Positions 150-26,974 of a DNA stretch of 64,000 bases are shown in pieces (within the stretch, counting starts at the first letter, position 1; each line of letters starts with the position of its first letter). This stretch comes from Zopfochytrium polystomum. Its lineage: Eukaryota; Chytridiomycota; Chytridiomycetes; Chytridiales; Chytridiaceae. The DNA lies in contig JAIVFJ010000017.1 in assembly GCA_025765615.1 (NCBI GenBank), positions 1-64,000 on the forward strand, in the 5' to 3' direction. Below the pieces are notes generated by a model. The model had not been told where the DNA came from. It worked only from the letters and a program-made list of their open reading frames with translations, and searched no databases. Made by a program: the position numbers and the translations under genes.

Positions 150-439
150 TTTTCAATAGTGTATTATTCGCTCCAACCCGAAGGTGAGGAATCTGCAGCT
201 TGAAAGTTAAAAAAGTACATGCATATGAAGGAAAAGAAAGAAAGTCCAAGAGGTCAGAGGGGGCACATGTGAGAGAGAGAGAAAGCCAACGAAGAAGAAA
301 AACAAAGAGGCCAAGGTGAAGAGAAGAGGTCTGAAAGAACAGTAGAACCAAACTTAAACCAGACAACAGCTTAAAACTATAAAGTCAACACAACAAAAAA
401 CAAATAGAAAACAAATGATGAGGCAACAGAAACAGACAC

Positions 440-6197: not shown

Positions 6198-6211
6198 CCC
6201 CTAACCCTAAC
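6198..6211. repeat. Telomeric repeat tract between LINE copies A and B
   Basis: CCCCTAACCCTAAC, identical in sequence and relative position to the tract at 136-149. It marks the 3' end of copy B and the 5' boundary of copy A. Confidence 0.8.
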
Positions 6212-6510
6212 TTTTCAACGGGATTTATTCGCTCCAACCCGCCCCCGAAGGAAAGGGTGAGGAATCTGCAACTTTGAAAGTTAAAAAAGTACATGCGTGT
6301 GAAGGAAGGAAGGTCCAAGAGGTCAGAGGGGGCACATGTGAGAGAGAGAGAGAAAGTCAAAGAAGAAGAAAAACAAAGAGGCCAAGGTGAAGAGAAGAAA
6401 GCAGAAAGAACAGTAGAAACAAACTTAAACCAGACAACAGCTTGAAAATAGAAAGACAACACAACAAAGAACAAATGGAAAACAAATGATGAGGCAAAAG
6501 AAACAGACAC

Positions 6511-7636
6511 TCATCTACCTCCCACTGAGACAGCGCTATCTGTATCAGAGTCGACCCACCCGGATCCGTCCGGCTTCCCCGTCACTCCCTGAGTCTCCTT
6601 AACCAGCCACCTGTTCCTCGATTCCCTAAACCCCTTGTTGCGCACTGGATCCCAGTGCGCACGCAGGGCTTCCCTAGCTTGCCGCCGCACCTGCGCCATC
6701 TGCATGCGAGTCCTAAGATCCGCCCTCCTTTCATCCACTGTCCCTGCTTCCATCAAATAGTCCGCCTCCTGATCTGCTGTGGTCTCTGAAGCATCCACAA
6801 AGTCCCTCATTCCAGCGCATTCCACTCGAATCTTTGCAATCAGCCTAGCCAGCTTCATCCCCAGTTTCTTTGAAGCAACCCTCGTCTCCTGAGGGATCTT
6901 ATCTGCATCATTGGCTGTGTATGGTGCCCAGAAAGTCAGAGTCTGCAGCAGCAGATCCAGCACTGTGATGTTCCTCCTCGCCTGCTCCACGCTTGGGACG
7001 CACTCAGGGTGGTCCGCCTCCAGGAGGCGGCGCACACCTGAACACTCCAAGGCATGGTTCCTGTCCAGCTCAGCATCACACTTCTTGCACTTCTGGTGAT
7101 AGGCCACACGACCACCCATCCAAGCCACAAGGCATCTCAACCACCTCCTGTTAAACATTGCACCAGACCGAACCACCTGGCAGGGCCCCCGGTGAGGGGG
7201 GACCACCAGAGGTGCCACCACTCCAGTCAAGTTGGCCTTTTCCTTGTACTTCTCAAGTGACACAGTGTGCATCTTCTGCATAGCAACAGCATCAATGTTC
7301 TTGGGCTCAGATCTGGTAACTTCAAGGTCATATGGATAAGTCCTGTGTCTGACAAACGGAATCTGTGCCAAGGCCTTCCGTGGCACCGATCCAAAATATA
7401 GGTCCACATCCGGTGTGAACAGAGTGAGCCTGGTGAGGGATCCTGCAGGAGCCCGCCGCCCCCGCTCCGCCATGTGCCTGTACATGTGTGCAGTGGTGCT
7501 TCTCTGGTCCTGAGTGTGGTGCAGTCTGTAGAAATATCTCGCGTTCAACATCTTGTTGCGTGCAACCATCGGCACCACTCCAAAAATCAGATGCATTGCC
7601 ACAGTGCTGGATGTTTTCCCAAAAGACAGAGCTTGG
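6511..7636 (-). pseudogene. LINE copy B ORF2 C-terminal fragment
   Basis: About 370 residues of the reverse transcriptase C-terminal region, starting mid-protein at the truncation point and ending with the same C-x2-C-x7-H-x4-C knuckle as copy A. It differs from copy A by scattered substitutions only, so the two insertions are recent relative to the divergence of the family. It lacks the catalytic RT blocks and the endonuclease and cannot be autonomous. Confidence 0.85.
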
Positions 7637-7654
7637 CCCTAACCCTAACCCTAC
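7637..7654. repeat. Telomeric repeat tract at the truncated end of LINE copy B
   Basis: CCCTAACCCTAACCCTAC at the right-hand border of the tandem LINE pair. To its right is unique DNA. Confidence 0.85.
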
Positions 7655-8800: not shown

Positions 8801-10047
8801 TCACGAGATGGCGCAGGACAACGCGCTGGTCCCCCGGGTCGCGCCCGCCTCCACCAACGCCTCCACAATCTCCTTGTGCTTAAAGTGCTGCGCGACCATC
8901 ATCGGTGTGAATCCTTCCGAGCTGACGCGGTTCACGTCGGCGCGACCCGAAGCGACAAGGAGCCTGATCATATCCACCAGGCCATTCGCCGCCGCAAACG
9001 TCAGCGGCGTGTGCCCGTCGAAGCGCTCCCCGTTCGGGTCCGCCCGGCCTCCAGGAGCGCAACCACGCAGTCCGGGTGCCCGCCCATCACCGCCGCCGCC
9101 AGCGGCGTCACACCTTTGCTGTTCGCCACGTCTACTTCCACGACGACGCGATCACCCGCGTCGTTCTTGATCGCCAGCAGCTCCGCGATAACGTCTCTGC
9201 GCCCCACACATGCGGCCGCAAACAGCGGCGTGATCCCTTCGAGGACTGTCGCGCCGCCGCCGCCGCCCTCGCCGCTTGGTTGCTCCTCGCGATACGTTGC
9301 GCGCGGGTCCGCGCCGTGCGCGAGAAGCCACTTGACGACGCTGGCATTGGACGGCACGGCGCTCACGGCGGTGGCGGCGGCCGCGGCCGCGGCGTGCAAC
9401 GCTTGACGGCCGTTCTTGTCGGCCGCGTGGATGTCGGCGCCACGGTCAAAGAGGAGCTGGACGCAGTCGGTGCTGCCGGCCGCGGCGGCCGCCAGGATCG
9501 GAGTCGCTTCGTCGTGGTCGCGGGCGTTCACATCCGCGCCGCGATCCAGCAGGAGCGCAGCCATCTCGGCATGGGCATTGCGACAGGCCGCGTGAAGTGC
9601 AGTCTCCCGGCTGTCGCTCGCGGTCGTGACATCCGCCCCTCGCTCGAGCAGCAGCAGTGCGCAGTCCCCGCTGTTTTCAGAGATGGCAGTGATCAACGGT
9701 GACTCGCCCTTGGAGTCTCTGATGTTGATATCGGCGCCGTGGTCGAGGAGGACGGCGAGAAACTCGGGGAGGTTCATTTGGCTCGAGATGTGGAGGGCAG
9801 TGGTGGTCAAAGTCCCTGGCGGCTCGGCGGGGTCGTCCGGAATGAAGACTGGAACGACGACGAGGTTGTCCGGGTTCGCACCCTTCTTGAGGATGGACGT
9901 TACCAGGTCGAGGTTCTTGCAGGCGCAGGCAGTGGAAAGGGCCTTTGTGTCGGCATAGACGGCGGGTTCGTACCAGGGGAAGGCCTCGGCAATGGCCTCG
10001 CAGGCGGCGGCGACGGCGGCGTGGCGGGCGGCGTTGTCGGTGGCCAT
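8801..10047 (-). pseudogene. Ankyrin-repeat protein gene with a frameshift near the C terminus
   Basis: Starts at ATG 10047 and encodes an ankyrin-repeat protein, a protein-interaction scaffold; partners unknown. At least seven repeats are visible with cores such as TALHISSQ, ESPLITAI, TALHAACRNAH, QALHAAAA and TPLFAAAC, and recurring LLLDRGADVNARD-type turns. The frame closes at about 9001, but the expected last repeats (HTPLTFAAANG, then FTPMMVAQHFKHKEI) continue in another frame to a stop at 8801. The break is in a GC run at about 9045, where one base appears to be missing. It could be a real inactivating deletion or a sequencing error. Two partial relatives lie just upstream on the opposite strand. 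Confidence 0.75.
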
Positions 10048-10201
10048 TGAGTTGTCTGTTGATTGCTGCTTAATTTTTTTTCTTTTGAAATTTTCCGAAT
10101 TTGGATGTATTGTCTTTGCAGTTTTTGCGCCACCCGCCCGTTTGGCTGCGGATGCAAACCCCAAACCCGCAGACCCCTCGGCAGGCCAGCCGTTGTGGCC
10201 C

Positions 10202-10443
10202 TTTGCACCGCCTGCGTCGACGCGCACACCCCGTTGACGTTTGCGGCGGCGAATGGCTTGGTGGATCTGGCCAGGCTTTTGTTTGATTCAGGCCGCGCGG
10301 ATGTGAACCGCGTCAGTGCAAAGGGGTTCACGCCGATGATGGTCGCGCAGCACTTTAAGCACACGGATATCGTCGAGGCGTTAGTGGAGGAGGGTGCGTC
10401 GCCGGGCAGAGGGACCAGCGCGTCGTCCTGCACTGTCTCATGA
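10202..10443 (+). pseudogene. Ankyrin paralogue, C-terminal fragment
   Basis: In-frame fragment of about 75 residues matching the last repeats of the minus-strand neighbour (HTPLTFAAANGLVD, GFTPMMVAQHFKH, VEALVEEGA) and ending at a proper stop. It is preceded by an ALCTAC stretch that corresponds to the N-terminal part of the next paralogue (around 10945), so an internal deletion has joined the beginning of the family to its end. It sits inside the upstream region of the minus-strand gene that starts at 10047. Confidence 0.65.
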
Positions 10444-10809
10444 TGGGTGCGAGTGCTCGACGTGAACAGACAAGACATAAGGGAGAAGCGCGCGTCTCGC
10501 ACCATCACAGAGCTGCGGCTGTTCGGTTGGCAAAGAGCAAAGAGACAGAGAGTGATGAGTGCGTGTGTGTGGTGGTGCAGATGAGATGGGACGTCGAGAC
10601 CGGGAGCGGAAGCGGACAGGCAGAATTGCCGCGGGGTCCTCGGAATCCGCAATCAAACAGAGTGATCAAAAGGAAAAAGGAAAGCAATCTCCCGACGGGG
10701 CTCCTCCGTCGGTGGCGTAAATGCGTTAGTTTTGTCTCGTTCCCAACTCAGTGTTTCCATTTCCTTTTTTTTTTTTTTTTTTCGTTTTTTCTTTTCGTTA
10801 CTACATATC

Positions 10810-11700
10810 ATGGCCACCACCACTCAACCGCCGCCGCGGACACCGCGGCCCGTCACGCGGCCGTCGCCGCCGCGTGCGAGGCCATTGCCGCGGCCTCCCC
10901 TTGGTACAACCCCGCTACCTACGCCGACACAAAGGCCCTTTGCACCGCCTGCACCGACAAGAACATCGACCTGGTCAAGTCCATCCTCAAGAAGGGTGTG
11001 AATCCGGACGGCCGCGTCGTCATTCCTGTCTCTATCCCAGATGACCCCGCCGAGCCACAAGAGACCGAGACGGTCTCCGCCCTCCTCATTTCGAGCCAGA
11101 TGAACCTCCCCGCATGCGTCGCCGTCCTCCTCGACCACGGCGCGGACGTCACGATCGCGAGCAGCAAAGGCGTGACCGCCCTTCACGCGGCCTGCCGCGA
11201 AGCCCTTCCCGAGATGGCTGCACTTCTGCTGGACCGCGGCGCGGCGGCCGACGCCCGCGCGCACGACGGAACTCCCGCGATCCTCGACGCCGCCGCAGCC
11301 GGCAGCACCGAGTGCGTCCGCCTGCTCCTGGACCGCGGCGCCGCGGCGGATTCCGCCGCCAACCCGGACCGCTTCGACCGCACGCCGCTCCTTGCGTCGC
11401 TGTGGGCCGAGAACATCGACTGCGTGCGGCTTCTGCTGACCCGCGGCGCCGACCCGAACGGCATCCTCGGCGGCGGGGGCGATGTGCCCGATATGCGGGC
11501 GATCCTGCTGCACGTGGCCGCAATGCAGGGCAGCGCCGACGCCGTGGCGGCGCTCCTCGACGCCGGCGCGGATATCCGCAGGGCCGACGCGCACGGCCAC
11601 GAGGCGCTGCACGTCGCCGCGGCAGTGAGCGACCCGCCGCCCGACGCCAGCGTCGTCAAGTGCCTCCTCGCGCGCGGCGCGGACCCCAACGTCCTCGTAC
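10810..11700 (+). pseudogene. Ankyrin-repeat paralogue, broken at both ends
   Basis: Plus-strand relative of the gene at 8801-10047. The family's N terminus (AARHAAVAAACEAI, then PWYNPATYADTKAL) and about seven ankyrin repeats are clear, including VTALHAACREA, APAILDAAAAG-like and EALHVAAA repeats. The ATG at 10810 corresponds to the family start but is out of frame with everything that follows, implying an indel in the first 30 bp. Similarity to the paralogue stops near 11700 (GADPNVLVPGK) and is replaced by unrelated sequence. A T17 tract lies just upstream (10769-10785). Confidence 0.65.
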
Positions 11701-11861
11701 CCGGCAAAGGCCCTCGTCGTCATCCGTGGCATTGTGGTGCAGCTGGTGGCTTGCCGCGTCATCGTCCTCGACCGGGCCTTCTGTTGCACCGCTGTGCGCG
11801 GCCATTCAGCGTGGGTAGGGGGTCGGCGAGCCTCAGCTAGCGGCGGAGGTGGTAGGCCTCA

Positions 11862-12345
11862 CGTAAAACTATAACAAAACGAAAAAAATTGACAAAAAAT
11901 CAATTACTCTGTGGGGACGCTGTGGTGAAATAAAACCGTAACAAAATGAAAAAATTGACAAAAAAAATCAATTGCAAGTCTGTGGGAACGCTGTTGGGGG
12001 CACTCTGTGTGGGACGCAGTGCGGGCTTTGGGAGTCTGTCGGACGCAGTCTGGGGTTCGGGAGTCTGTCGGAACGCTGTGGAGAGGGGACTCTGTGGGAC
12101 GCTCCGGCTTCGACGCCCTCTGTGGGACGCAGTGAGGACATAGTTTTTTTTGCCCTCACCATAACAAAATGAGAAAATTGACAAAAAAAATCAATTTCCG
12201 GAATTGGCAGACTCTGTGGGAAGGCTGGTGCAAGGGGCACCCTCTGTGGGAACGCTGATGAGAGGGCGCCCTCTGTGGGACGCAGTGCGGCTTCGTTTGC
12301 ACTAATCGGCTTCGTTGGCACTGATCGTGGGCCGGATGGATATGT
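11862..12345 (-). repeat. Repeat-rich 3' region of the second LINE
   Basis: Two interleaved repeats. Three copies of an A-rich core (ATAACAAAATGA then AAATTGACAAAAAAAATCAA on the plus strand; AATTGA...TCAATT is itself inverted) occur near 11870, 11940 and 12165. Between them are about nine variants of a GC-richer unit, consensus CTCTGTGGGACGCAGTG. The block ends at GGATGGATATGTCTAGG (12334-12350), whose CTA is the ORF2 stop codon. A related block with the same core and the same end motif occurs alone at 25190-25544. Confidence 0.7.
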
Positions 12346-15300
12346 CTAGGGTAAGGGATGTGAGAAAACTGGAGCTCCAGAGGCCAGGTCAAGTTGGAGG
12401 CGGTGCATCATGATACGGCTTATGTGGCCAATGAGAGAGGGGGAGTTCAAGCGAGAGTTGAGGTCAACAATCATGTCAGAGCAGTATTCATTGTAAAAGT
12501 CAGGGAAGTTATGGGTCATGGGGTGATGGAGGAGGGCATTGGGAAAAGAGGTGCAGTAGCCAACCAGGCGTTTGAAGGTTTTGCGACAGAGTGTGGTGAG
12601 GTTGTTGAGGAAAGTACGGGGGAGAATGGCAGTTTTCCACAGAAAGCGGACGCGTGGGAGGAGAACGTTACGGATGAGGTAAGAAGCAATTTTGTCACCC
12701 ATCTTTTTGTGTTTGATAATGTCGAGGAAATTGGTGGTGGTGGAAAGGATTTGCTGCCGTGCTGCTGAGCTCATACCGTCTGCTGTGAAGTAGTTGCCTA
12801 GGTGTCGAAAGGTGGTGTTTGGCGGGTGGATGGGAAGGACTGTGGTGCCCCAGTTGATGGTGGTAGGTGCTGATCGCGGGGTGTTGACAGCGGAGATGAA
12901 GATTTTCTTGGTGTTAGACTCGATGTCGTTATGTGACTGGTACTCAAAGAGGAGGTCGGCCTGAAGCTGCAGATCCTCCAGGGTGCTGGAGAGGGTGTTG
13001 GTGTCGTCGACAAGGGCAAAGCCAGTAACAGAGACAGGGGGTGGGGGGTTGAAGAATTGGACAGGGAAGTTACGAGGGGTGGGAACTGAGAAAATGAAAC
13101 CGGTGGTACAGCGATCAAGAACGCAAAGAACAGGGTCCCAAAAGATACGCCAATCAAGGGGTCCCTCAAGGGAGCCTTGCTGAATCATAGTGCCAATGGG
13201 GAAGGAAGGGGATGGGCCAAAAGCTGTGATGACAGAGGAACGAAAACGACGTTGGGAATTGACACGCATGCGAACATAAGAAGAGGGGAGGTGAATACGT
13301 TCCCAGGAGGCAATGAGGCCAGCAACAGGGGTGCTGTCAAAAGCTTTCTTAATGTCGTTGAGGAGAAGGTATAAGGGCTGTTTAGTGGAATGGGCAAGGT
13401 CAAGGGCGTAGCGTACAAGGTGGAGAGGCGGGTCAGGAGAAGAGCCAGGTAGGGCAGAGAAGTTGCGACCAAGGAGTACATTGTGAGAAGAGAGGATGGA
13501 AGAGATACGAGAAAGACGGATGGATTGAACAACTTTGGCAGCAAGTTCGCAGAGGCTGATTGGACGGAGGTTAGTGATGTCACCACCCCACGCAGCTTTC
13601 TTGGGTATGGGGAAGATGGAGGAAGATGCCCAAGAGTCTGGGATGTCGAGGAAGAGAAAAGAGCGAATGATGAGGGAGGAGAAGAATGCAAGAGCATCAG
13701 GACCAGCTGCGAGGAGAAGCTCTCTGGAGATTTGGGAGGGGCCAGGGGCTTTGTTTGAGGCAAGAGATGTGAGAGCGTTTTTGACATCGTTGGCAGAAGG
13801 GGGCAGCATAACCTTGGAGAAAAGATCTGGGGGGATGTGGGGACGGGGTTGCATCTCAGAGTGAAATGGAGAGGATGGTGGGAAGGGAGTGAGGGTACGA
13901 GGGCGAAACCAGTGTTCAACCTGTTGTTGGCAGATACCAGGGACAAGGTCAGGATCGTGGGTGATTGAGGGACCTTCGGCAGTAGTATAGCGAATGTGGT
14001 CGATGCTAGAGTTGCTGCGCGTGCGGTTGAGGATGTTGTTGAGGACAGTCTTTATCTTGCCAGAAGAGAAAAGGTCGTGTCTATGTGTGAGAGCTGTGGC
14101 AATGTCCTCCATTTTGTGCTTTTCTGCTGCCTGGCGTTGGGCACGGTAGATGGCCTGGCGATGGCGGTTGAGGGCGGGGAGTAAAACATCACGATAGTCA
14201 GTTGTGTCCAAGAAGCGGGCTTTGTACTGAGAGTGGATGTGGGACAAGAAGGAGTAAGACTGATCTGCGCCCCACTCAGATGGGGTCAAAGGAATGGAAG
14301 GGAAGATGTTAGCCAGATCATGCGCAGGGTCTTTGGCAAGTGCCCACAGTTTCTCTACTTTCCAACGTGCAACAAGGAATGGTTTGGCACGGCAATCTAT
14401 CTTTGGCGCTACTGAGGAGGTTCCCTTGTGAGGAAGGAACTTTTTGCCAAGCCGAAGCAGTAACTCGTGAAATGATGTGGAGAGTGTGTCAAGGTGGCTG
14501 ACGAGGAGTGATGCACATTCTGGGGAGGGGTATTGAAAGGGTAGGGATGGAGAATGGAGGAACTCAAGCTCGGAGGGGAGAAGAATGCTGTCCAAGGCTG
14601 CAAGGGCTGCTGAGAGGGGGGCAAGCTCAACTGAGACGGCTGAAGTGTAATTGTCGAGTTGCTCCTCTGAAGCTTCCAGGGGTTTGATGACCTGCCGGCG
14701 CAGAGGGGAGAAGGGAAAAGTGTGGAAGGGGGAGGAAGCAAGAATTATGTTGAAGGGGAGGTGGTCTGAAGTGTCAGTGAGATGGGGCTCTTCAAGTGGA
14801 GAAGAAATGTTAGCTTCAGTGACGTAGTCAAGAGCAGGGGGTGAGAGCCAAATGCTGTCCAAACGAGAGGAGTAGGAGCCAGCAGTGTGTGTGTAAGAGG
14901 GTAAGTCTGGGTGCAGGTGTCGAAAGGAATCAACAAAGCCTTTCAGGGAGAGGGTGGGGAGGAACCCATGGTGGGAAGTAGGTGTGGGGGCTCTGGTGGA
15001 GTGGTCAAGGGGGTCAGTGATGGCATTCCAGTCACCAAACCAGTAGGCTTGGTGGGGTGAGGTGGAGTCAGATGAGGCAAGAGAGTTGCACCATTTTTGT
15101 AAGTCAGGGAGTTCCTCAGATTGGGGGTCAGCAGGCCAGTAAATATTTCGCAGGAGGATGGAGCGTCGAGCAAAAGATAAGGTGAGGGCAATGGCACGAG
15201 TTCCAAAGTGGGAGACGTCAGTGATGTGTGGTGCCAGGGAAGATGAAATGATGAAACCAACGCCAGCGTGACGGGAGGGGGTGGAGGATATGAAGAAACC

Positions 15301-15516
15301 TTTGTAATTCCTAGTGATGTGACGAATGGAGTGGGTGGCCTCTGTGTCAGAGCAGCCAGTTTCTTGAATGGCAAGGATGGTGGTTTTGGTGTGATCGAGC
15401 CAGTGGAAGATAGATGCAGCCTTGGTGGGGAAGGCACGACGGATGTTCCAAGTTGCAAAGCGAGGGAGGGGTGGTGGTGTTGGGGGTGGTGTGCAAGACA
15501 CAGGGCTAGTTGACAT
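12346..15516 (-). CDS. Second LINE ORF2: endonuclease-reverse transcriptase
   Basis: About 1056 residues from ATG 15516. The N-terminal EEP endonuclease shows ATWNIR, AIQETG, RNIYWPAD, FGDWNAI, SRLDSIWLS and SDHLP, i.e. all the usual metal and phosphate-binding positions. RT blocks follow: NLRPISLC, LLLNDIKKAFDS, IQQGSLEGPLDW and GFALVDDTNTLS. The third block has VDD rather than the common Y/F-A-D-D. No Cys-His knuckle is seen at the C terminus. The single frame is intact, so this copy may be recently active. Its TAG stop lies inside the conserved motif that starts the 3' region. Confidence 0.9.
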   Translation of the reverse strand: MSTSPVSCTPPPTPPPLPRFATWNIRRAFPTKAASIFHWLDHTKTTILAIQETGCSDTEATHSIRHITRNYKGFFISSTPSRHAGVGFIISSSLAPHITDVSHFGTRAIALTLSFARRSILLRNIYWPADPQSEELPDLQKWCNSLASSDSTSPHQAYWFGDWNAITDPLDHSTRAPTPTSHHGFLPTLSLKGFVDSFRHLHPDLPSYTHTAGSYSSRLDSIWLSPPALDYVTEANISSPLEEPHLTDTSDHLPFNIILASSPFHTFPFSPLRRQVIKPLEASEEQLDNYTSAVSVELAPLSAALAALDSILLPSELEFLHSPSLPFQYPSPECASLLVSHLDTLSTSFHELLLRLGKKFLPHKGTSSVAPKIDCRAKPFLVARWKVEKLWALAKDPAHDLANIFPSIPLTPSEWGADQSYSFLSHIHSQYKARFLDTTDYRDVLLPALNRHRQAIYRAQRQAAEKHKMEDIATALTHRHDLFSSGKIKTVLNNILNRTRSNSSIDHIRYTTAEGPSITHDPDLVPGICQQQVEHWFRPRTLTPFPPSSPFHSEMQPRPHIPPDLFSKVMLPPSANDVKNALTSLASNKAPGPSQISRELLLAAGPDALAFFSSLIIRSFLFLDIPDSWASSSIFPIPKKAAWGGDITNLRPISLCELAAKVVQSIRLSRISSILSSHNVLLGRNFSALPGSSPDPPLHLVRYALDLAHSTKQPLYLLLNDIKKAFDSTPVAGLIASWERIHLPSSYVRMRVNSQRRFRSSVITAFGPSPSFPIGTMIQQGSLEGPLDWRIFWDPVLCVLDRCTTGFIFSVPTPRNFPVQFFNPPPPVSVTGFALVDDTNTLSSTLEDLQLQADLLFEYQSHNDIESNTKKIFISAVNTPRSAPTTINWGTTVLPIHPPNTTFRHLGNYFTADGMSSAARQQILSTTTNFLDIIKHKKMGDKIASYLIRNVLLPRVRFLWKTAILPRTFLNNLTTLCRKTFKRLVGYCTSFPNALLHHPMTHNFPDFYNEYCSDMIVDLNSRLNSPSLIGHISRIMMHRLQLDLASGAPVFSHPLP

Positions 15517-15558
15517 AGTTGACTAAGGGGTGCAGGAAGTCCTGCTAATAATGTCTCT

Positions 15559-15559
<1 letters not shown>

Positions 15560-15595
<36 letters not shown>

Positions 15596-15633
15596 GAGAA
15601 ATAAGAGTGATATCAATAGCAAAGGGGCTTTCA

Positions 15634-15674
<41 letters not shown>
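15560..15674. repeat. T35 / 40-nt spacer / A40 inverted homopolymer pair between ORF1 and ORF2 of the second LINE
   Basis: On the plus strand T at 15560-15594 and A at 15635-15674, separated by 40 bases of mixed sequence. In the element's RNA this reads U40-spacer-A35 and could form a hairpin of more than 30 A-U pairs directly after the ORF1 stop and just before the ORF2 start. The exact tract lengths may be affected by sequencing slippage. Confidence 0.8.
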
Positions 15675-15676
<2 letters not shown>

Positions 15677-15688
15677 TAAGAATATTGG

Positions 15689-17353
15689 TCAAGTTGAGGC
15701 AGTGTTCCTAGTTTTTGAGGCAGTTTTTGGGGCAGGTTTGGGGGCAGGTTTGGCAGCAGGTTTGGGGACAGGTTTGGGGGCAGTTCTGTTGGGAGGAGTT
15801 GAAGAGGAACTGGAGCTTGAGTGTGTGGTGACAGCTGATCGAGCTGGGACAGTAGTAGTAGAAGAAGGTTCAGCGGAGGAACGGTCGTCAAGGTCCTCAT
15901 CAATCGGGTCATTGTATTTCAACCATTCTTCAATTGTCCGGAGGCGAGAGCTGAGGAGCTGGGTGGTTGTGTCCACTGTCGTGAGGCGGCTGTCCAATTG
16001 TGCAGTGAGTGGCTCCAGTGTGGTGACTCGCTGATTTAGGTTGTGGATGGCGCCAGCATGGTTTTTGAGTGAAGTATCCACGTTGGCTGCAGCAGCTGCA
16101 AGTCTCTGAATGTCGTGGTCCACCTTTGCTAAGCCGTGTTCCAGTGCTGCAGGGATTGGCTCAAGTTGGGAAAGCTGAGTGGTGAGTTTTTGGATGTCAG
16201 TGCGTACTGTTGTCTGATGCTCTTTCAGCTCTGTGCGCAAGGAGGTCTGTTGTGCGAGAAGCTGTTGCTGGATGTTTTCAAGGACCTTCAAAATTGACTG
16301 CAGCTGTGGAGGAGGGACAGGAGGGGGAGCAGGCAGGACAGGTGGGGGAGTTGTGGTGTCAGGAGGGGCCTGAGCTGTCTGGCTGTTGTCTTTGGAATCT
16401 GCTGAAGTGGCTTGGTTAAGGAGGGAGCCAGAGGGGCGGCCAGTTTTGCAAGATTGAGAGGTATGGTTGGAGTTTCCACAACGGCGACAGCAGGGGAAGG
16501 GAGTGAAATCTTCCTTTTGGAGTGGGTGAAATGGGAGTGCACGGCCATTGAAGACAACTGATTGGTTAGTTTTTTGCAACATCAATGCGCGGGTTGTAAA
16601 AACAAAATGGGCAGACGACGAAAGGCCAGCAGTGCCCTTTGCTGAGTTGAAGAATCCTGGAATGCGAACTGACGTGCACCCAAACTCATATTGGATGGCC
16701 TGAAGGTCATAGATACTTGTGGAGCGACGAATGTTATAAAGGACAGCTGTGCGTTGCTTTTCATCGCTGATTCGCTGCTGGTTTTCTGCAGAAGGTTCCA
16801 GTGGTCGAATAGTGACACCTGCACCCATAATAGTTATGAACTGAGGGGGATTGTGAGGAGGGCCGTCAAAAAGAACTGTGGCGGATGCGGAGGCAGAAAG
16901 CTGGTGGTGTGCAAAATGAATAGCCATTATGGAGCCGCACGAGGATAAAGCAGAGGTGATTGCATGACGCAGGGAGTCCTTTTGCTCATCAAAGTTCTTT
17001 CTAGTAGTTCCAGGAGCCAGGTGTTGGAGTACGAGTTGGTTGGTAGGTTCGTTGGTGAATTCTGTGGCAGCAGCTGGTAGTCGACAGGTGTAAGAAAATT
17101 TAATGTGTGGGGATGTGGTCTGAAGACGGGCAGCCTGTTCGTTTGACAAAGGATGCAGAAGGCGGAGCGAGTAAGAAGTCTGGTCCTTTGAGAGCAAGGG
17201 CCGCTGTCGGATGGTGAGGTCGCAAGTGGAGATAAAGCGTAGGATGTCAAGTTCAGTGAGTGGGGCAATAGTGGGGTCTGGCTGAGTGGTGATTGTCAAT
17301 ATGTGTTGATCAGCGTGGGTGCCGAAGAACGTGGAGGGAGGTGAGCTGCTCAT
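15689..17353 (-). CDS. Second LINE ORF1: gag-like protein with zinc knuckle and coiled coil
   Basis: About 554 residues from ATG 17353 (the frame is open further upstream, into the leader repeats, but that part is repetitive). Features in order: an N-terminal domain with RRM-like character (SALSSCGSIMAIHF, SASATVLFDG), a second such region (FGCTSVRIPGFF), a zinc knuckle PCCRRCGNSNHTSQSCK (C-x2-C-x4-H-x4-C), a Pro-rich linker, a long coiled coil from about ILKVLENIQQQ to LRTIEEWLK, and a basic Lys-Pro-Ala tail. Such proteins coat the element's RNA. The stop is 14 bp from the A40 tract on the plus strand. Confidence 0.8.
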   Translation of the reverse strand: MSSSPPSTFFGTHADQHILTITTQPDPTIAPLTELDILRFISTCDLTIRQRPLLSKDQTSYSLRLLHPLSNEQAARLQTTSPHIKFSYTCRLPAAATEFTNEPTNQLVLQHLAPGTTRKNFDEQKDSLRHAITSALSSCGSIMAIHFAHHQLSASASATVLFDGPPHNPPQFITIMGAGVTIRPLEPSAENQQRISDEKQRTAVLYNIRRSTSIYDLQAIQYEFGCTSVRIPGFFNSAKGTAGLSSSAHFVFTTRALMLQKTNQSVVFNGRALPFHPLQKEDFTPFPCCRRCGNSNHTSQSCKTGRPSGSLLNQATSADSKDNSQTAQAPPDTTTPPPVLPAPPPVPPPQLQSILKVLENIQQQLLAQQTSLRTELKEHQTTVRTDIQKLTTQLSQLEPIPAALEHGLAKVDHDIQRLAAAAANVDTSLKNHAGAIHNLNQRVTTLEPLTAQLDSRLTTVDTTTQLLSSRLRTIEEWLKYNDPIDEDLDDRSSAEPSSTTTVPARSAVTTHSSSSSSSTPPNRTAPKPVPKPAAKPAPKPAPKTASKTRNTAST

Positions 17354-17439
17354 GAAATAGGGGGGTGCCAATCCCAATTCAGCACAAAGGTTGTGATGTG
17401 GTTGCAATGTGGTTGTGGTGGTGAAGGAGGAAAGTGATT

Positions 17440-17895
17440 GCTGGAGGCAATCTGGCAGCAATCTGAAGTCAATCTGACGATGATCTGACGACAATCGGAT
17501 GATTATCTGGCAATCTGACAAGAATTGGGCGTTCTGGTAATAATCTGTGTCAATCTGGCGACAATCTGATGATGATATGATGATCTGGAGACAATCTGAC
17601 GAAAATCTGACGTTGACCTGACAATGATGTGACAATCTGACGAAGATCTGACGTCAATCTGACGATCTGGAGTCAATCTGATGAAGATCTGATGTCAATC
17701 TGATGATCTGGAGTCAATCTGACGTTGACCTGACGATGGTCTGACGATCTGATGAAGATCTGACGTCAATCTGGCAGTGGCAAAGCGGTGGGGGGTGGTG
17801 GTGGAGGGTTCTGGAGTCAATCTGAAGTCGATCTGATGATGATCTGGCGATCTGACAACAATCTGATGTTGATCTGACGTTGATCTGGCAGTGGG
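17440..17895 (-). repeat. Short-period repeat in the 5' leader of the second LINE
   Basis: Dense array of units around ATCTGACG (variants CAATCTGACG, GATCTGATG, GATCTGGAGT), spaced mostly 11-13 bp, covering about 450 bp on the 5' side of ORF1. It is interrupted by two GGTGGTGG-rich stretches (17790-17812 and 17900-17945). Position suggests promoter-monomer repeats as in some mammalian L1 leaders, or transcription-factor sites; both are inference. Confidence 0.75.
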
Positions 17896-18016: not shown

Positions 18017-18174
18017 TTGGCATCAGTTGATCTAGTGAAGTCCCTTTGTTCAGACAAGACAGCAAGGAATCAAGAGTTTGACGTAGATGACCTAGATGCC
18101 CATGCAATTGTGTCTGATGCCATTGGAGCTGCAGCTGCTGTAGATGCTCAAAACACAAGGAGTTCTCTTGATGT
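18017..18174 (+). other. Probable upstream exon of the recombinase-helicase gene
   Basis: A stop-free stretch with protein-like composition (DVDDLDAHAIVSDAIG, VDAQNTRSSLDV) followed by a good donor site, G|GTGAGC, at about 18174. It lies 170 bp before the first secure exon of the recombinase-helicase gene and has similar codon use. However, joining it to the exon at 18342 in the obvious way does not keep the frame, and no in-frame ATG is visible. The second LINE begins about 100 bp further upstream, so the true 5' end may have been displaced or damaged. Confidence 0.35.
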
Positions 18175-18341
18175 TGGTGAGCTCCTGCTCCCCTTGCTCA
18201 TTTGACACTGCATATTTTTCCTAAAAGACGTCTTCTCCCTCTCTCTCTTTCTCACTTACTCTCTCCCACACACACACTCTCTCTCTACGTCACATATTTT
18301 CAATGTTTTAAGATGTTACAAGTCTTGGTGATTCATTTCAG

Positions 18342-21300
18342 AGCACTGGTGCATTTGCTATCCAGGCTGTGAGTGGTGCAGTTGATGTTGAAGTTGCAAA
18401 GAAATCTTCTTTTCATCCTGGAAATGGTGAGTCCATCAGCTCCCTTTATCTTTGCCTCTTTCTTTTCACCATTTGAAGCTTACTATTTCTTTCCATTTGT
18501 TTCTGTGCAGATGCGTTGAAGTATTCTGCTTACTTGCCTGAGTTTAAGGCTTTAATTTGCAAATTCTGCACATCAGCTGTTGGCCCCAAGAATGTCAGGA
18601 AGCATGCCCGCAAGGTCCATTCAGATTTGAGTCCAGATATTCTTTCAAAGCTAGCTGTTGAGCTTGTGGCTTTGGCATCTAGGAATGTGGTGCTCGATCC
18701 TGCACAGCTGCCTGTTCCTGGCCGTACTCAGCGCAGGGTGCCCATTTTGGTTGTTTGCCCTGGTTTCAAGTGCACCACATGCTCTTCTGTCTTTGTGGAT
18801 AAGAGGAGAGTCCACAAGCTGGAGCACCATATCGATTCCAGCTGTCCATGCACTTTGGCCTCTGTAGTTCCTGTCGCAGCAGTGCAGCGCTGGGCCTACT
18901 TTTGCAGGTTCTTTGAAGTAGAGTCTGGTAATGCTTCCATGCAGGATGAGCTTATGGAATCTCAGTCTGATAGTGCTGCTGAACTTGCTGCTTCAAGTGC
19001 TCAAACCTCTGCCCTCCTTTCTCAATTGGATTGGGGTGTGAAGAATATCAGGAATCTTTCAGCAACTGATAATAGCAGCTTGAACTTGGCCTCAAAAGGT
19101 GTCATACACAAATCAAACTGGGCAGAAATGCACCAATGGCACCAGCTGCTGTCTGGATGTGATCTAAGTTTAATATCTTCCTTAGCACAGCAACCAGAGA
19201 AAAAACCTGCCTGCACCTCTGATGTTGAAATATCTCTTGTGCTGAAGGAAGAGATGTTTTTCAAGTTTTTGCTGGAGGCACATGTTGAGGCAAAGGCAGC
19301 GCCTAACGTTGTGAGATACGCACTCAATCATGACCGGCAAGACAAAGAGGCTGCTGGTCGCAGAAAATTTGGTGTTATGGACAAAACTGCCTGCGATTAT
19401 GCAGTGCCCTTTGTTGGTATGATCAGGATTTTTCTGCGAGCATACAGGCTTGGGCCCAAAGAGCTTGCAAGGATACCTGCAGTGCAGATTGCTTTTGATA
19501 AGCACAAGGAAAGAATTGAGAGGCTTGTGAATGCTGAAGCTTTGAACCAAGTACGCACAGCGTTCTTTCAGTTTTGTGGTGCCCTCATCACAGAATTTGA
19601 TGGTGGTGCTAGAAAACCTTGCACTGCAAAAATTGCAATCGCTTGTTTGGGTGTGGATCCAAGCAGGAAGCTTGCATGGTGTGAGCCGTGGAATTTTAGC
19701 AAACCCCTCTCCGCGCTGATATACCACTTCAGAAGTGTGGGGTACTTTTGCCTGAAGAAAGCCCACATCACCGTGGCTGGAATGGCTCAAAGCAGTGACA
19801 ATGGTGTGATCGGCAAGCAGGATGATCCATCCACTGTACCAGCTCCATATGATGATGATGAGCTGGAAGAGCTTGTGATTGATTTTATGGAATTTCGCTC
19901 AAAGTTTCTGGTGCTGTCTGCCAGCCATGTGTGCGATTATTTACACAGAGCACGAGCTTACTGCCTCAAGACAAAGAATCCTTCCATAAGCCAATTTCAT
20001 GCAGACAATGAAGGCTTCCATTTTGCAGGGAAGAATATCTTTTACAACTCTTTCAAGCCTGTTGCCAGAGCTATGGTGGAGGAATTGATGGAGGACTACT
20101 TGAAAATTAGCCTGCACAAGGAGATGGGCACCGAGCCCTGGAGCGTGGATATGTCCGCTTTGAAAGATAATCTGTGGGACTCCACCAATGGATTTTCATT
20201 TGTCTCTCATCCTGATAATTGCAATGCTGTCAGTGCTGGACCCGATTTGAAGAAAAGGGCTGTCGGATATTTTTTTGATAAGTCTGAATTGAGGAATGGG
20301 GGGCTGGCTGCTGAAATTGGACAACCCTTCCCAAGGGGGTTGAAGATGGAAACATCTTTGGATTGGCTTTCAGATGTGCGTCAGTTCAAAAAGAGTTTGG
20401 CCACATGTATCATGTTTGCTGCAGGTGCTTCAAACAGGGCCACGGAGCTACTGGCTGCCCTGGTGCAGAACGATACTGATTGGCCTTGCACTGTGCGCCT
20501 CTTCAACGGCTGGGTTTTCCTGCAGCAGAGCTACAGTAAAAGCATGGCAAAGAGGGAATCAGTTGTCCTGCACTTTTTGCCAAAAGCTGTGGGCCAAATT
20601 CTTGTAGACTGGCTTGTGCAGGGGCATCCTCTGCACATGATGATTGAGACTGTCATGTTTCAGCAGGAGTGTCCCCCCTTGCTATTTTGGGCCAAGGGAG
20701 GGGTTGTGAAGCCTGATGATCTGTCACAAGACATGTCCCTCAAGACTGCAGCATATGGCCTTGGCGCTGCCACTGGAATACGCATGTTCCGGCAAGTACA
20801 GGCCTTTGTGATAAGGGCAAAACTTGGTGCACATGAGTCTATGCAGCTGGGATCTGCTGGACCTGATACCAATGAGGAAGAAAACGATGGATTGGCATAC
20901 GAGGCTGAACTTCTCCATGAGCTTGAAAGCACAGAGCAGCTTTCCCAAGTGGGTGTGGCACTCACCTTGCAAGCAGGCCACTCTGTCAAGACTGCCCTCA
21001 AGTACTATGGGCTGACACAAGAAGATGTCGTTGGTGTCAACGAGTCAGCCATGGGGGCCTTTCTTGCTGCTTCAAACAAGTGGCACCAATTCTTGGGGCT
21101 TGGGGAAGACAGTCTTGTGTCCAAGGACACTGATGGGGATGGTGATGCTGTTGTGGTTGTCAGTGCAAAGAATTTTGAGTCATTGAAGGTCAAAGCTTAT
21201 CCAGACAAGGACCACCTCAAAAAACCCTCTTGCACAGTGCACCCAGTTTTGAAGACTGGCCCAGTTCCAAGCTCTGTGATAACTGCATTACGCTCAATTC

Positions 21301-23895
21301 ACAGTGGAAAAGATATTGTCCTCAGGGCAAATGGTGGTCAAGCAAAGGCCATTTTCTTGGCAAGCACTAGCAGCAGCACACCCCAGCATTTGCTTGCAGC
21401 TCTTCCAACTGGGACTGGAAAAACAGAAATATGGCTTGCTCCACTCAAGGCAGAAAGAGAGCATGGCAAGCCACTCTGTGTCCTGTTTTTGACACCTTTT
21501 GTTGCATTGGGAAAGGATATAGTGCGGAGGGTTGAAAAGGCTGGGCTTGAAGCACAGTATGTGAGCCACACATCGCTGAACCTTGTCACTATGTCCACTG
21601 CTGTGATTGTTATGACTGTGGATGCCTCACTAAATGCGGAATGCATCAAGTATGCCCTGACGTTGATTGAATCAAGTAGGCTTCAGAGGCTTGTCATTGA
21701 TGAAGCCCATGTGGCACTCTTTGACTCTTGGCGCACAATATTCCAGGATGTGAACAACCTTGGACAGCTGGCTGCCAAAGTACCATTTCTCTTGACAACT
21801 GCAACTCTGCCTCCAAAGCAGGAGGCTACTTTGGGTGCAATTTATGGGTTGCAACAGCTGCATGTTGTGAGAGCCCCAGTTCAGAGAGCAAATGTCAGAT
21901 TGGAGGTGCACAAAGTCAATGGTGGTCAAGCTGAGATTGAGGCGCATGTTCAGATGCTAGTGCGAGGAGTACTTGATCGCGGTCAGTCTGTGATGGTCTT
22001 TGTTACCACCAGGAAGGCTGCAGTCTTGTGGGCTGAAACCTTGAAATGTGGAGTAAGTGTTGAAAGTTCCATCTGTTTGATTTTTGTTTTCCTTGTGAAG
22101 TAAAGCTGACTGTTCTTCTCAGTACTATTATTCTAAAGATGGTCAAGGAGACGAGATAATGGACAATCATCTTTGCAATTTTTTGAACGGAAGATTGAAA
22201 ATCATTGTTGGCACAACTGCCTTGTGTGCAGGAGTGGATTGCCCAGATGTTAGGCTTGTTCTACACATTGGTCATCCCTTCTCCCTGACTCAGTGGGTTC
22301 AAGCAGCAGGAAGAGCTGGGAGAGATGGTTCAGCGGCTTGTGCTCAGATTGTTTTGCACAATGATGGACAATCACATGCTGCAGAAGAACCCTATGAAGG
22401 CATTTTGTTCAAAGATGATGCTGTCAGCTTGGATCGAGATGCAATCAGACAGTTTGTTTCCAGAAACCAGTGTAGGCGGATGACTATATCCAGCTTTTTT
22501 GATGCTGATACTTTTTCATGTGGTGAACATGGCCAAGATGCAAGCTGTGATGTTTGTGACCCTGCCAATCACTGGGAACCCAGCCTCCTGGTTCACTTTG
22601 AACTCAGCAGAACCATTGCAGGTGCAGATTCTAAGACCCAGGACCTTTGTTTGGCAACTGCAGAGAGTGCTCCTCCTGCTTCTTTTTTTGTAACTGCAGA
22701 AAGCAGGAATAAGGGGAAGGCTTCTGCATCTTCTTCAGAAGACAGAATCTCTTCTACTGGCCCCTTTGATCTGTCAAGGCCTGGCCCGCCAGTTACTCCT
22801 CATCAAGTTGGAGTCAAGTTGTTCAGAAGCCAGCTGGAAATCTCTGGAATGGGCACTCTTCTTCCTGCCCCTCAGTTCAACCGTTCCCTTGGGCCAAAGA
22901 GACCAAGATTTTTCACAGAAGCAAACGATATGCAAGAGGAGGATGGAACAACAGCAAGTCAAGTTGAAGAGGAGTTCATTCCTGCAACAAGCCAAGCATC
23001 TGATTTTGCTGTTCCACCAAAACACCCTGTGTTCCCAATGGGCAACAGGTCTGGTGACACATTGTTTCCAAGATTTATCTCAGCCACTGCCCCAGAGGCA
23101 GGTATGTTGAATAGTGCTGAGATGGGTTCTGCTTATGATGGTGTTGGAGGGTATGGCAGTGCTGCTCCTGGGACTTATCCTCCATTTGATTTGCCCTCTT
23201 TGGTTGGAGCATCACCACTGCCAGCAAGGGCAGAAGGCTGTGGTGCTCTTCCTTCCTTCGGAGAAATTGGCTCTAGATTTGATTTCAGTCCCATCAGCTG
23301 CAACATCCAAAGGTGTATTCCAGCAACTGGAACTGGGTTTGCAAAGCAAAGGCAAGCACCAGCTGCAGTTCCTCCTCTAGTTGGAGTGATTGGAAACCCT
23401 CAGATGAAGGCCAGGACCATCCTTTGTATCCAGCAAGCATATCACACACACAAAGGTGATTGTGGAGTTTGCCTTGCGTTGGGCGTCGCACCAGGGCCAG
23501 CACGAATGCATAAAGGTTGGGGGAGTTGCCCTAACTCTGATGCGACCAAAGGATCAAACGTGTGGGCTAAATTTGATGATTCTGCCAGCTGCTATTTCTG
23601 CTACCTTCCTCAAGATGTTTGTGGTGGACAAGGAGTGAAAGGAAACTGCAGATTTCAGAGCAAGTTTTTCATTTTGGATATTCTCAAAGTGCTTGCAACT
23701 CACCGACATGCTCTCGACAGAGCCAGGCAACTGACAACTTCACCAAATGCACTGCCTGGAATGAACCAGCTGCATATTTTGTACCCAGAAAAAACAGGCA
23801 CTGCTCCAGCCAGCTGGTTTAAATTGATGCGGTGGAATGGCCTTCAGGTCTACCCTGCATTTGTTATTGTAGCTGCAGTGATGTTTGCGCCATAG
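18342..23895 (+). CDS. C2H2 finger - tyrosine recombinase - RecQ-type helicase fusion protein
   Basis: Exons 18342-18426, 18511-22052 and 22123-23895 join in frame (1799+ residues; N terminus incomplete). Seen in order: two Cys-His finger motifs (ICKFC...HARKVH, about 18560-18620; KCTTCSSVF...H, about 18770-18840); a tyrosine-recombinase catalytic domain with box I Arg in GASNRATELL (about 20430), a K/R hairpin SKSMAKRES (about 20540), RMFR in the H-x-x-R place (about 20780) and GHSVKTALKYYGL with the His and nucleophile Tyr (20976-21012); then a RecQ-type helicase with LPTGTGKTEIW (Walker A, 21400), VIDEAHVALF (DEAH, 21697), TTATLP and QAAGRAGRDG (motif VI, 22303). A RecQ zinc site follows (CRRM...SCGEHGQDASCDVC), and a C-terminal Cys/His cluster (CGVCLAL...CYFCYLPQDVC). 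Related C2H2-RecQ proteins are common near fungal chromosome ends; the recombinase assignment is from motifs only. Likely acts on DNA in the nucleus, possibly as a mobile-element protein. Confidence 0.85.
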
Positions 23896-24396
23896 GATAG
23901 GGGACTGGACCTTCTCCATTCAAATCCATTCTGTTTCTTGTCTTTGCTTCTTGGTTACTAATTGCTGACGTTTGTTCGTGTTGTTAGAATCTCTTCCTTT
24001 GGTTTGTCTCTTGGCCTGTTTTCTTTGTATTCATTTTCAGTTCCTGTCTTGTTGCAATGAGGCACAGGGGGTTTTTTTTGTAGGTGTCATCCAGACCTTG
24101 GATATCAAACCTTTTTTTCCCCTCGCTTCAATGGTAGGGATGCTAGAACACCCAGCCTCCTTTACGTCTTTTGTTTGCTTGAAATGATATTTCTTTCTTC
24201 AAAAGAAAACTTCTGTCTCCTTGAAGTAATACAATAAAAATGCCCAAAAAACCTCCTTTTTGCTGATACTCTGCAAAGTTGAGTGCCCCAGTAACTGATA
24301 TTGAAGCACAGGGGGTCCCCAGGTTTCTGAAAAATTTAAAGATCCAACGACCCAGCTGAAAGGACTGTGAAACACAGTTGCAAGGCAAAAGTTGTT
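23896..24396. other. Region downstream of the recombinase-helicase gene
   Basis: AT-richer DNA without a recognisable gene. It precedes the tandem 334-bp repeat. No poly(A) signal was assigned. Confidence 0.3.
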
Positions 24397-25021
24397 TGGG
24401 CCAACCTTGACCTGCAAAGGTTACTTAACAGAAATCTCCGCCAGGACCTCAACGTTAGCACCTTTCTAATGTATTTTTGACTGATCAACACATTAAGCAT
24501 ACTCCTACAGCCGTCCACCGCTGTTCTGGAAAAAAGTTCTAAGTGAGGGCTGAAAAAAAAAAAATCAAAAATCCTTTGTGCCCAAGTTTACCTTGCACAG
24601 ACCCGAGCCCAGGATGTGAGGGCAGGACCAGTAAGCAAACCACATGCGTAGAACACGATTCCAGCGTCGAAACGGCAGTGGGCTGTGTTTCCAGAAAAAA
24701 ATTATAAGTGAGGACCAATTTTTTTTTTTTTTGGGCCAACCTTGACCTACAAAGGTTACTTAACAGAAACCTCCGCCAGGAGCTCGTCCTTAGCACCTTT
24801 CTAATGTATTTTTGACCGATCTACACGTTGAGCATAATCCCACGGCCGTCCACCGCCGTTCCGGAAAAAATTTCTAAGTGAGGACCGAAAAAAAAAAAAA
24901 ACGAAAATCCTTTGAGGCCAAGTTTACATTGCACAAACCCGACCCCAGGACGTGAGGGTAGGCCCAGTAAGCAAACCACACGCGTAGAACACGATTCCGG
25001 CGTCGAAACGGCGGTGGACAG
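24397..25021. repeat. Tandem 334-bp direct repeat (about two units)
   Basis: Unit 1 begins at 24397 and unit 2 at 24731, both with TTGGGCCAACCTTGACCT followed by the same succession: TTACTTAACAGAAA, GCACCTTTCTAATGTATTTT, CCGTCCACCGC, an A-rich run, then CACGAT and GCGTCGAAACGGC. Unit 2 ends at about 25021. A sub-motif (TTC-x-GGAAAAAA-x-TTCTAAGTGAGG) recurs within units. A diverged third copy lies at 26975-27130. Confidence 0.8.
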
Positions 25022-25189
25022 CCTCCTGCAAAAGATTTCCTGAGTGGGAGTGCGTTTTGGATCTGGAGTTTTCGGAAAAACCCGCGATATTCCCTGTTTG
25101 CCACTAATCGACCCAAAGTTTTTTTTGCAGATTCGGAATCCTCTCGCAATTCTAGCTTAGAGATGTGACACTTAGAACGTCGAATCACG

Positions 25190-25544
25190 TCATCTTTGTG
25201 CCGGTGGGAGAGCTCAAAGTGTGGGTGGTCGCTGTGGACTTAGTTTTTTTGGCCCTGGTGGAAAACAATAACAAAATGAAAAAATTGACAAAAAAAAACA
25301 ATTAGACTTGGTCTCATATGAGTCCATATTGAGTCCATATTGAGTCTATATGTGTGGACTCAATAGTGAATGAAAACCATAACAAAAACAATAAAATTGA
25401 CAAAAAAAAACAATTAAGGAGACACAAAATGGACTCATTAATGGACTTGATAGTGGACTTGATAGTGTGGACTTGATAGTGGCCCCACTTTCACTAAGTG
25501 GCCCCACTTTCACTAAGTAGGGCCCGGATTGATATGTCTAGGTG
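25190..25544 (-). repeat. Solo tail block related to the 3' region of the second LINE
   Basis: Contains two copies of the same A-rich core as at 11862-12345 (AAATTGACAAAAAAAAACAA near 25285 and 25410), the same lead-in (ACTTAGTTTTTTTGGCCCT), different minisatellite fillers (GAGTCCATATT and GGACTTGATAGT units, GGCCCCACTTTCACTAAGT twice) and the same end motif GGATTGATATGTCTAGG at 25528-25544. No coding part of the LINE accompanies it. Confidence 0.7.
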
Positions 25545-25822
25545 ACCATTGTCACGCAAGTACCATCAATTATTAAGGTGTAGTCATTAAAAATAGTGCT
25601 GAATTCTTTTGAACACTTGGGACCCCCATGCTAGGCACGGGTTTAGAAGGTCAACCTTTTGTTGATCCAAGGTTAATGGCTCACAGAGAATTACTGACGT
25701 AGTTGAAACTAAGGTGTCAGGAACAGGGCAGGACAGGACAAGGCAGACAAGGAACTGAGAGGAGTGATGATTGTATTGGAAACAATAATTCACTTGAGGG
25801 ATGGGACAGGTCCCCCATCCCC

Positions 25823-25830
25823 CTTTTATA
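25823..25830 (-). promoter_or_regulatory. TATA box, outward-facing, left inverted repeat
   Basis: CTTTTATA on the plus strand, TATAAAAG on the minus strand; mirror image of the one at 26817. Confidence 0.5.
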
Positions 25831-25940
25831 CCTTTTGAGAGTCTTTCTTGTCAAGACTCAAAGAAAGTTCCAGAAAGAGCAATTAGTAATACAATGATAC
25901 CAATGATACCAATGACAACAAGACAAGTCAGGAAAGCAAA

Positions 25941-26008
25941 GAAGGTTCCAGAAGGTTCCACAAGGTTCCATGAAGGAATGTTCTAGAAGGTCCCAGAGGT
26001 TTCCAGAG
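25941..26008 (-). promoter_or_regulatory. Heat-shock-element array in the left inverted repeat
   Basis: Shorter mirror copy of the array at 26600-26712, with the same GAA/TTC pentamer alternation (GGTTCCAGAAGGTTCC and following). Confidence 0.55.
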
Positions 26009-26191
26009 GGTGATTCATAACATAAGGCGCATAACATGCGGCCATATTGGATCTTCTAAACGTTGATACTTGTAATTTAACAATCGCAGAAATCTATTCA
26101 CAGACCTACACCTCGTGCATGTTACGGATGAATGGTTGAACAGAATTTACCTCAATAGAACAAAACACATAGAGAATGATGTACTTGTGCG

Positions 26192-26550
26192 TTTATTAGC
26201 CCTTGGTTTCTTGTTGGATTTACAGATGGAGATGAACGTTATAGTTGTATAATTCGTACCGAATACAATAAGTTTGGATTTAAATTGGTGTTCACTTAAG
26301 GGAATATTCGTAATACTCCAGAGAATCTTAAACTTCTTAAATTTGGCAATCTGAATAAAGGAACACTTAAAGAAGATAAATCTAATCTGGGTAATCATAA
26401 AAAGAGAATATCTGGTTGAAGTTAGAGATTTTTTTTAGATGTATCCTTTGCAAACTTCGAAAGCAATTCAATTTTCAAGCATGGAGTCAAATCTTGGATG
26501 TAATTAGATCTAAGACTAGGCAAGACCTGACAGAAAAAGATTGGAAACAA
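26192..26550 (+). pseudogene. Decayed LAGLIDADG homing endonuclease, mitochondrial-intron type
   Basis: Three reading-frame segments in sequence resemble a group I intron homing endonuclease. 26192-26299 reads PWFLVGFTDGDERYSCI, the LAGLIDADG helix with its conserved Gly-Asp, then KFGFKLVFT and a stop. The next segment, in another frame (about 26311-26420), has NLKLLKFGNLNKGTLKED, like the region linking the two helices, and about 26474-26550 reads AWSQILDVIRSK...LTEKDW, like the C-terminal region of these proteins. Base composition is AT-rich, as in fungal mitochondrial DNA. Frameshifts and stops show it is dead. It fills the interior of the foldback element. A direct search against mitochondrial intron proteins would settle this. 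Confidence 0.7.
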
Positions 26551-26599
26551 TAGTTGCATTTAAAGGATTGTTTGCTAAATGTTATGAATCACCCTCTGG

Positions 26600-26712
26600 A
26601 AACCTCTGGAACCTTCTAGAACATTCCTTCATGGAACCTTCTGGAACCTTCTGGAACCTTCTAGAACATTCCTTCATGGAACCTTGTGGAACCTTCTGGA
26701 ACCTTCTTTGCT
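26600..26712 (+). promoter_or_regulatory. Heat-shock-element array in the right inverted repeat
   Basis: Alternating pentamers nGAAn/nTTCn run almost without interruption for over 100 bp (for example GGAACCTTCTAGAACATTCC). The heat-shock-factor site is defined by exactly this alternation, and three units suffice for binding; here there are roughly twenty. It lies about 105 bp upstream of the TATA box at 26817. Confidence 0.6.
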
Positions 26713-26816
26713 TTCCTGACTTGTCTTGTTGTCATTGGTATCATTGGTATCATTGTATTACTAATTGCTCTTTCTGGAACTTTCTTGGAGTCTTGACAAG
26801 GAACACTCTCAAAAGG

Positions 26817-26824
26817 TATAAAAG
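26817..26824 (+). promoter_or_regulatory. TATA box, outward-facing, right inverted repeat
   Basis: TATAAAAG downstream of the GAA/TTC array; predicted transcription start near 26850, leaving the element toward 27 kb. Confidence 0.55.
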
Positions 26825-26974
26825 GGGGATGGGGGACCTGTCCCATCCCTCAAGTGAATTATTGTTTCCAATACAATCATCACTCCTCTCAGTTCCTTGT
26901 CTGCCTTGTCCTGTCCTGCCCTGTTCCTGACACTAAAGGATAGAGCCCCAAACTAAGGGAATTGTTCCCAGCCT

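Follow-up and report, generated by a model that had tools for sequence, protein, structure and literature searches.

What a gene that joins a recombinase to a helicase might do near the ends of fungal chromosomes is the question raised by a locus of the chytrid Zopfochytrium polystomum, the species from which the deposited proteins matching the gene come. The stretch analyzed (the window) comprises bases 1-64,000 of contig C17 (544,369 bases) in an assembly of 80.2 Mb. Judged by its sequence and a predicted structure, the gene is an OrsD-YR-RecQ fusion (YR, tyrosine recombinase) and a member of the fungal OrsD-RecQ helicase family; OrsD, YR, and helicase lie in one reading frame, in that order (Table 1). 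The original prediction, which placed a YR catalytic domain and a RecQ-type helicase in one protein, agrees with both the predicted fold and the conserved residues. Relatives in other fungi have the same recombinase-helicase build, and besides this chytrid, the family is represented in basidiomycetes and one ascomycete.

The domain is almost certainly a tyrosine-recombinase catalytic domain. Its AlphaFold model (384 residues; predicted local distance difference test score [pLDDT], 76.7; predicted template modeling score [pTM], 0.82) came out with the YR catalytic fold, the outcome on which the original prediction had staked itself. In a structural comparison with VIA, which took in Foldseek's candidates only and served as a second look, ranks 1 to 37 are YR-superfamily structures, and the predicted fold matches the phage and Xer-type YRs lambda Int, Cre, XerH, and XerA. 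Foldseek searches of the PDB place YRs at ranks 1 to 5 for the long model (E from 0.032) and at five of ranks 1 to 6 for the domain-only model (E from 0.10; rank 4 is unrelated), which gave no better E-values than the long one. Several integrases top the results from a viral structure library (best E, 0.036), with an uncharacterized phage protein at rank 4. Type IB topoisomerases share the fold at lower Z (7.2 and 6.0 in VIA). The main rival reading is that the domain acts as a type IB topoisomerase whose Tyr nicks and reseals DNA to relax or resolve helicase products, with no site-specific exchange, during subtelomere replication. These topoisomerases have a residue set similar to that of YRs, and RecQ helicases are known to work in partnership with topoisomerases; we nevertheless consider this role unlikely.

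The catalytic residues are consistent with the predicted fold. Arg, Lys, Arg, His, and Tyr occur in this order in 11 of 11 distinct proteins and in 12 of 12 alignment rows, and the Arg, Arg, His, and Tyr that were expected to be kept in homologues are therefore all conserved, together with the Lys. The window gene's own deposited model (P0002) is outside the 11 proteins, yet it forms a row of alignments A2 and A3; P0003 stops before the YR domain, and P0039, despite a YR-profile match at an E-value of 1.8e-20, was kept out of the residue tallies owing to an ambiguous alignment at box III. The protein searches scored only candidates with the most words in common, and the true family is larger than counted. 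When hhalign was used to compare the 11 fungal segments and 10 phage YRs, the lambda and Cre residue positions having been verified, a local alignment of 132 columns resulted, with all five residues in register, an acid at +3 of the box I Arg (E or D in 10 of 11 proteins) on lambda D215, and a non-His residue on H308. The score was 26.4 (E of 0.0098 as a single comparison), and that of column-shuffled controls was at most 16.5 (n = 20).

Several results count against this identification. Three cuts of the YR region had no match in Pfam at E ≤ 10, and the profile search that had been proposed as a check came back empty, as no Pfam YR model matched the window protein or the 12 members (E ≤ 1). 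In the same 12 members and at the same threshold, there was no match to GCR1_C, the domain of CryptonF, or to DUF3435, the YR domain of Starship captains, both models being presumably contained in the Pfam library used; on the Pfam results, the protein belongs neither with the GCR1_C-type Cryptons nor with the DUF3435 captains. A phmmer search of PDB sequences returned weak PriA helicase matches only. Alignment of A3 by hhalign with Cre alone or lambda alone gave nothing (P-values of 0.62 and 0.57, respectively), the in-register alignment being obtained only with the trimmed family against the 10-sequence YR profile, and the formal hhalign probability of that alignment is 4%. Foldseek E-values reach only 0.03 and 0.10, and the majority of VIA alignments end ahead of the His and Tyr. 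The lack of a Pfam match and Foldseek E-values of >0.01 are what would be expected if the YR resemblance were due to chance (i.e., a helical region with motif look-alikes). However, every high structural match belongs to one superfamily, and the five residues align in register and are conserved family-wide, so that we consider chance extremely unlikely. Judged by model and alignment, the sampled family members carry a YR catalytic domain that Pfam does not recognize.

A further point on the same side is that the third catalytic His is missing from 11 of 11 proteins, which have R (six), Q (two), A, G, or S (one each) in its place. The change from H to R had been called unusual, correctly, and the loss of His is a family-wide trait. 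His at this position is a usual, not a defining, YR feature; in the available text of PMC4381057, it is described as less conserved than the Arg pair, and several Cre His-289 variants remain recombination competent, so its loss leaves activity possible. The missing His would also fit a YR fold retained merely as the DNA-binding module of the helicase, with no DNA cutting, and there is a parallel in domesticated Crypton YR domains (DUF3504), which are described as having lost catalytic residues and as possible DNA-binding domains (PMC3212892, available text). Set against this reading, which we find distinctly improbable, are the invariance of both Arg residues, Lys, His, and Tyr in the 12 rows and the ratio of nonsynonymous to synonymous substitution rates (dN/dS) in the YR core (235 codons), which is 0.11 for the window versus C378 and 0.16 for the window versus C185.

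These ratios were calculated by the Nei-Gojobori method between the copies on C17 (window), C378, and C185. Values for the YR region (380 codons) are 0.20, 0.24, and 0.19 for the three pairs; in helicase lobe 1, the window pairs give 0.21 and 0.22, and the entire main exon gives 0.29 to 0.35. The C42 copy was set aside as frame disrupted; also set aside was the C378-C185 helicase value of 0.45, because it takes in bases beyond the intron border and cannot be compared with the others. The YR domain is under purifying selection and is constrained at least as strictly as the helicase; a caution is that gene conversion between paralogues could lower dS and affect dN/dS.

The Z. polystomum genome has multiple copies of the gene, in part decayed and frequently subtelomeric. 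The main exon has at least 52 matches on at least 20 contigs; the copies on C17, C378, and C185 are near full length without stops, and the remainder are partial, many with stops. Contigs C42, C76, and C378 end in TTAGGG arrays, with their copies ∼6 to 24 kb away. Every one of the 261 matches counted for (TTAGGG)4 in the assembly falls on the plus strand, the minus strand having none, an odd asymmetry that probably stems from assembly or contig orientation. A contig-end test covered 13 of the 20 copy-bearing contigs, 8 of which are ≥100 kb; in 7 of these 8, a copy lies ≤20 kb from a contig end (expected, 1.4; P = 1.1e-5). A stricter count excluded C19 and C209, because assembly breaks cut these contigs off within the gene, and C42, because it duplicates C185, and still found a copy ≤25 kb from an end in four of five contigs (expected, 1.1; P = 0.006). 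The right ends of C19 and C209 both stop inside the YR-RecQ gene with their last 200 bases identical, a sign of near-identical copies collapsed or broken in assembly. Duplication of entire subtelomeric blocks accounts for some of the copies, as in C185 and C42, which match at 98.9% identity over 10.6 kb. In the stretches compared, the one long alignment between C185 and C378 spans 7,167 columns around the gene (88%), all other matches being short; therefore, the gene region sits in unlike surroundings.

The boundaries of the copies did not reveal element ends of a known type: no terminal repeats or target-site duplications were recognized in the search for direct repeats bounding the gene copies, and no element ends or circular forms were seen in the copies compared. 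Three positions also fit poorly with a purely subtelomeric family, namely, the window copy (18 kb from the contig start, with no telomere array there), the C190 copy (44 kb from a contig end), and a piece on telomeric contig C177 (∼58 kb from its array). The edges common to C185 and C378, near C185:113.25-113.30 kb and 120.37-120.41 kb, have no recognized terminal inverted repeat or target duplication. The copies on C378, C600, and C737 are not independent insertions, as their flanks are common to all three, and in such non-independent copies, the short terminal direct repeats that are a Crypton feature were not recognized. Most blastn alignments of the window gene to other copies start at 18592. 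Between the repeat at 12.0-12.35 kb and 18546, blastn finds nothing in the window that resembles the other copies examined, and the 5' end of its copy is therefore undefined.

Dispersed repeats at 12037-12350 and 24392-25504 were dismissed as candidate element termini, since neither their location nor their orientation is constant around the copies. Downstream of the gene, a unit of ∼335 bases stands twice in tandem at 24392-25017 (89 to 90% alike) and recurs, in varying orientation, near the copies on C76, C190, C428, and C185. An inverted pair of ∼298-base repeats at 25714-26933 (98% alike) encloses 624 bases that by eye resemble a mitochondrial intron open reading frame (ORF); the same repeat flanks, in the manner of a long terminal repeat, an insertion in the C76 gene copy, the point of interruption corresponding to window 20116-20120.

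We infer a protein able to cut and join DNA, its reaction, site, and product included, and a helicase family that serves as a mobile-element enzyme. The finger region would bind a specific DNA site, the YR domain would cut and rejoin strands through its Tyr with the Arg-Lys-Arg-His site, and the helicase on the same chain would open or remodel DNA for pairing, strand exchange, or copying. The most probable result would be integration, excision, or exchange of a gene-bearing segment among chromosome ends, by an element that may be either self-propagating and subtelomeric or co-opted for end maintenance. We consider it fairly probable that the fusion moves or exchanges a gene-bearing segment in this way. 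A telomere-resolvase-like enzyme that processes chromosome ends (e.g., by hairpin or junction resolution) rather than moving segments would also act at such locations but seems very unlikely. As to the broader proposal that fungal subtelomeric OrsD-RecQ genes are kingdom-wide YR elements, with recombinase and helicase as one enzyme that moves between or recombines chromosome ends site specifically, and with the helicase part of the reaction, we lean slightly against it; if true, an enzyme annotated as a plain helicase would drive part of fungal chromosome-end plasticity. If the YR is competent, the working hypothesis for subtelomeric helicase genes shifts to site-specific DNA cutting and joining, so that these puzzling genes near fungal chromosome ends would gain a concrete, testable role, with a single residue, the Tyr, as the mutation target. 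The family would then represent a helicase-fused YR lineage, unseen by Pfam and spread over chytrid, basidiomycetes, and ascomycete, in which the third His is replaced.

Both helicase lobes are of RecQ-type superfamily 2 (SF2) and exceed their Pfam cutoffs, and the window protein has the combination of OrsD and RecQ-type helicase; RecQ_Zn_bind in the last exon reaches 16.5 bits, under its cutoff of 25. OrsD is matched in 8 of the 12 rows of A3, one of the 8 being the domain fragment itself. The long central region of the main exon has no Pfam match. Paralogue P0001 (1,940 residues), from a contig whose length of 53,522 equals that of C378, shows the identical exon junction across the helicase intron, and in the window, no first exon or gene start was found upstream of the first predicted exon.

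Table 1. Features of the YR-RecQ gene in the window
Feature	Coordinates	Strand	Remarks
Predicted upstream exon	18027..18176	+	Open in the gene's frame; GT/AG borders
Predicted exon	18313..18426	+	Open, same frame as the gene; GT/AG borders
Main exon	18511..22052	+	Open frame; OrsD region, central region, YR domain, helicase lobe 1
OrsD domain (PF12013)	18528..18833	+	37.5 bits (cutoff, 26.6)
YR domain as modeled	19989..21140	+	384 residues; AlphaFold model
Box I Arg	20436..20438	+	Invariant in 12 rows; aligns with lambda R212
Beta-hairpin Lys	20538..20540	+	Invariant in 12 rows; aligns with lambda K235
Box III Arg (RMFR)	20790..20792	+	Invariant in 12 rows; aligns with lambda R311; position -3 is Arg, not His
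His of GHS	20979..20981	+	Invariant in 12 rows; aligns with lambda H333
Tyr, predicted nucleophile	21006..21008	+	Invariant in 12 rows; aligns with lambda Y342
DEAD helicase domain (PF00270)	21339..21821	+	45 bits (cutoff, 26)
Intron	22053..22122	+	70 bases; GT/AG, frame kept; junction identical in P0001
Last exon	22123..23895	+	Helicase lobe 2, weak RecQ zinc-binding match, C-terminal Cys-rich region; stop at 23895
Helicase_C (helicase lobe 2)	22174-22329	+	36.4 bits (cutoff, 23.5)

Other features of the window were recognized by eye. On the minus strand at 135-7648 are two copies resembling a long interspersed nuclear element (LINE), at 135-1572 and 6197-7643 (94% alike), whose 3' ends both run into TTAGGGTTAGGG (137-148 and 6199-6210); the 5' edge of the truncated copy also adjoins TTAGGGTTAGGG (7637-7648). 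This element may be a retrotransposon that targets telomere repeats for insertion or carries them at its end. A second LINE-like ORF pair (reverse transcriptase-like plus zinc knuckle; 12346-17653, minus strand) ends just upstream of the YR-RecQ gene, and two opposed, partly similar frames (78 to 81%) with ankyrin-like repeats occupy 9001-11840.

Reference lists in the literature trace RecQ-like genes at the ends of fungal chromosomes back to 1998 or earlier, and a telomere-maintenance role has been suggested from the helicase and the location. Relatives include UTASa and UTASb of Ustilago maydis and genes of Agaricus bisporus (PMC10532341, PMC7593156, and PMC7473861), var. burnettii being the variety described with the RecQ genes (PMC7473861). 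The Z. polystomum gene resembles these telomere-linked helicases in its RecQ-type helicase, OrsD (in UTASb), and multiple copies at ends but differs in that the proteins of U. maydis and A. bisporus, compared by description only, are described as helicases. Within the literature searched (outside which lie most subscription journals and bioRxiv), the available texts yielded no description of a YR-RecQ fusion and no paper treating OrsD and a tyrosine recombinase together; novelty is unproven.

With lambda Int, Cre, XerH, and XerA, the family shares the predicted fold and, with lambda Int, the register of the five residues; unlike phage and Xer YRs, it lacks the third His, is fused to fingers and an SF2 helicase, and has no detectable single-sequence similarity. 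Starship captains are likewise fungal YRs, described as moving DNA, whereas this family lacks DUF3435 in the 12 members, has a fused helicase, and extends beyond Pezizomycotina. From type IB topoisomerases, the family is set apart by its fingers, RecQ helicase, and multicopy subtelomeric genes. Crypton transposons are also eukaryotic, including fungal, YR-encoding elements, but CryptonF has the GCR1_C domain that is unmatched here, no element ends were recognized here, and the word helicase is absent from the available text of the Crypton paper (PMC3212892). Overall, the gene would be new as a variant in two groups, YR enzymes and OrsD-RecQ proteins, with putative recombinase activity and mobility.
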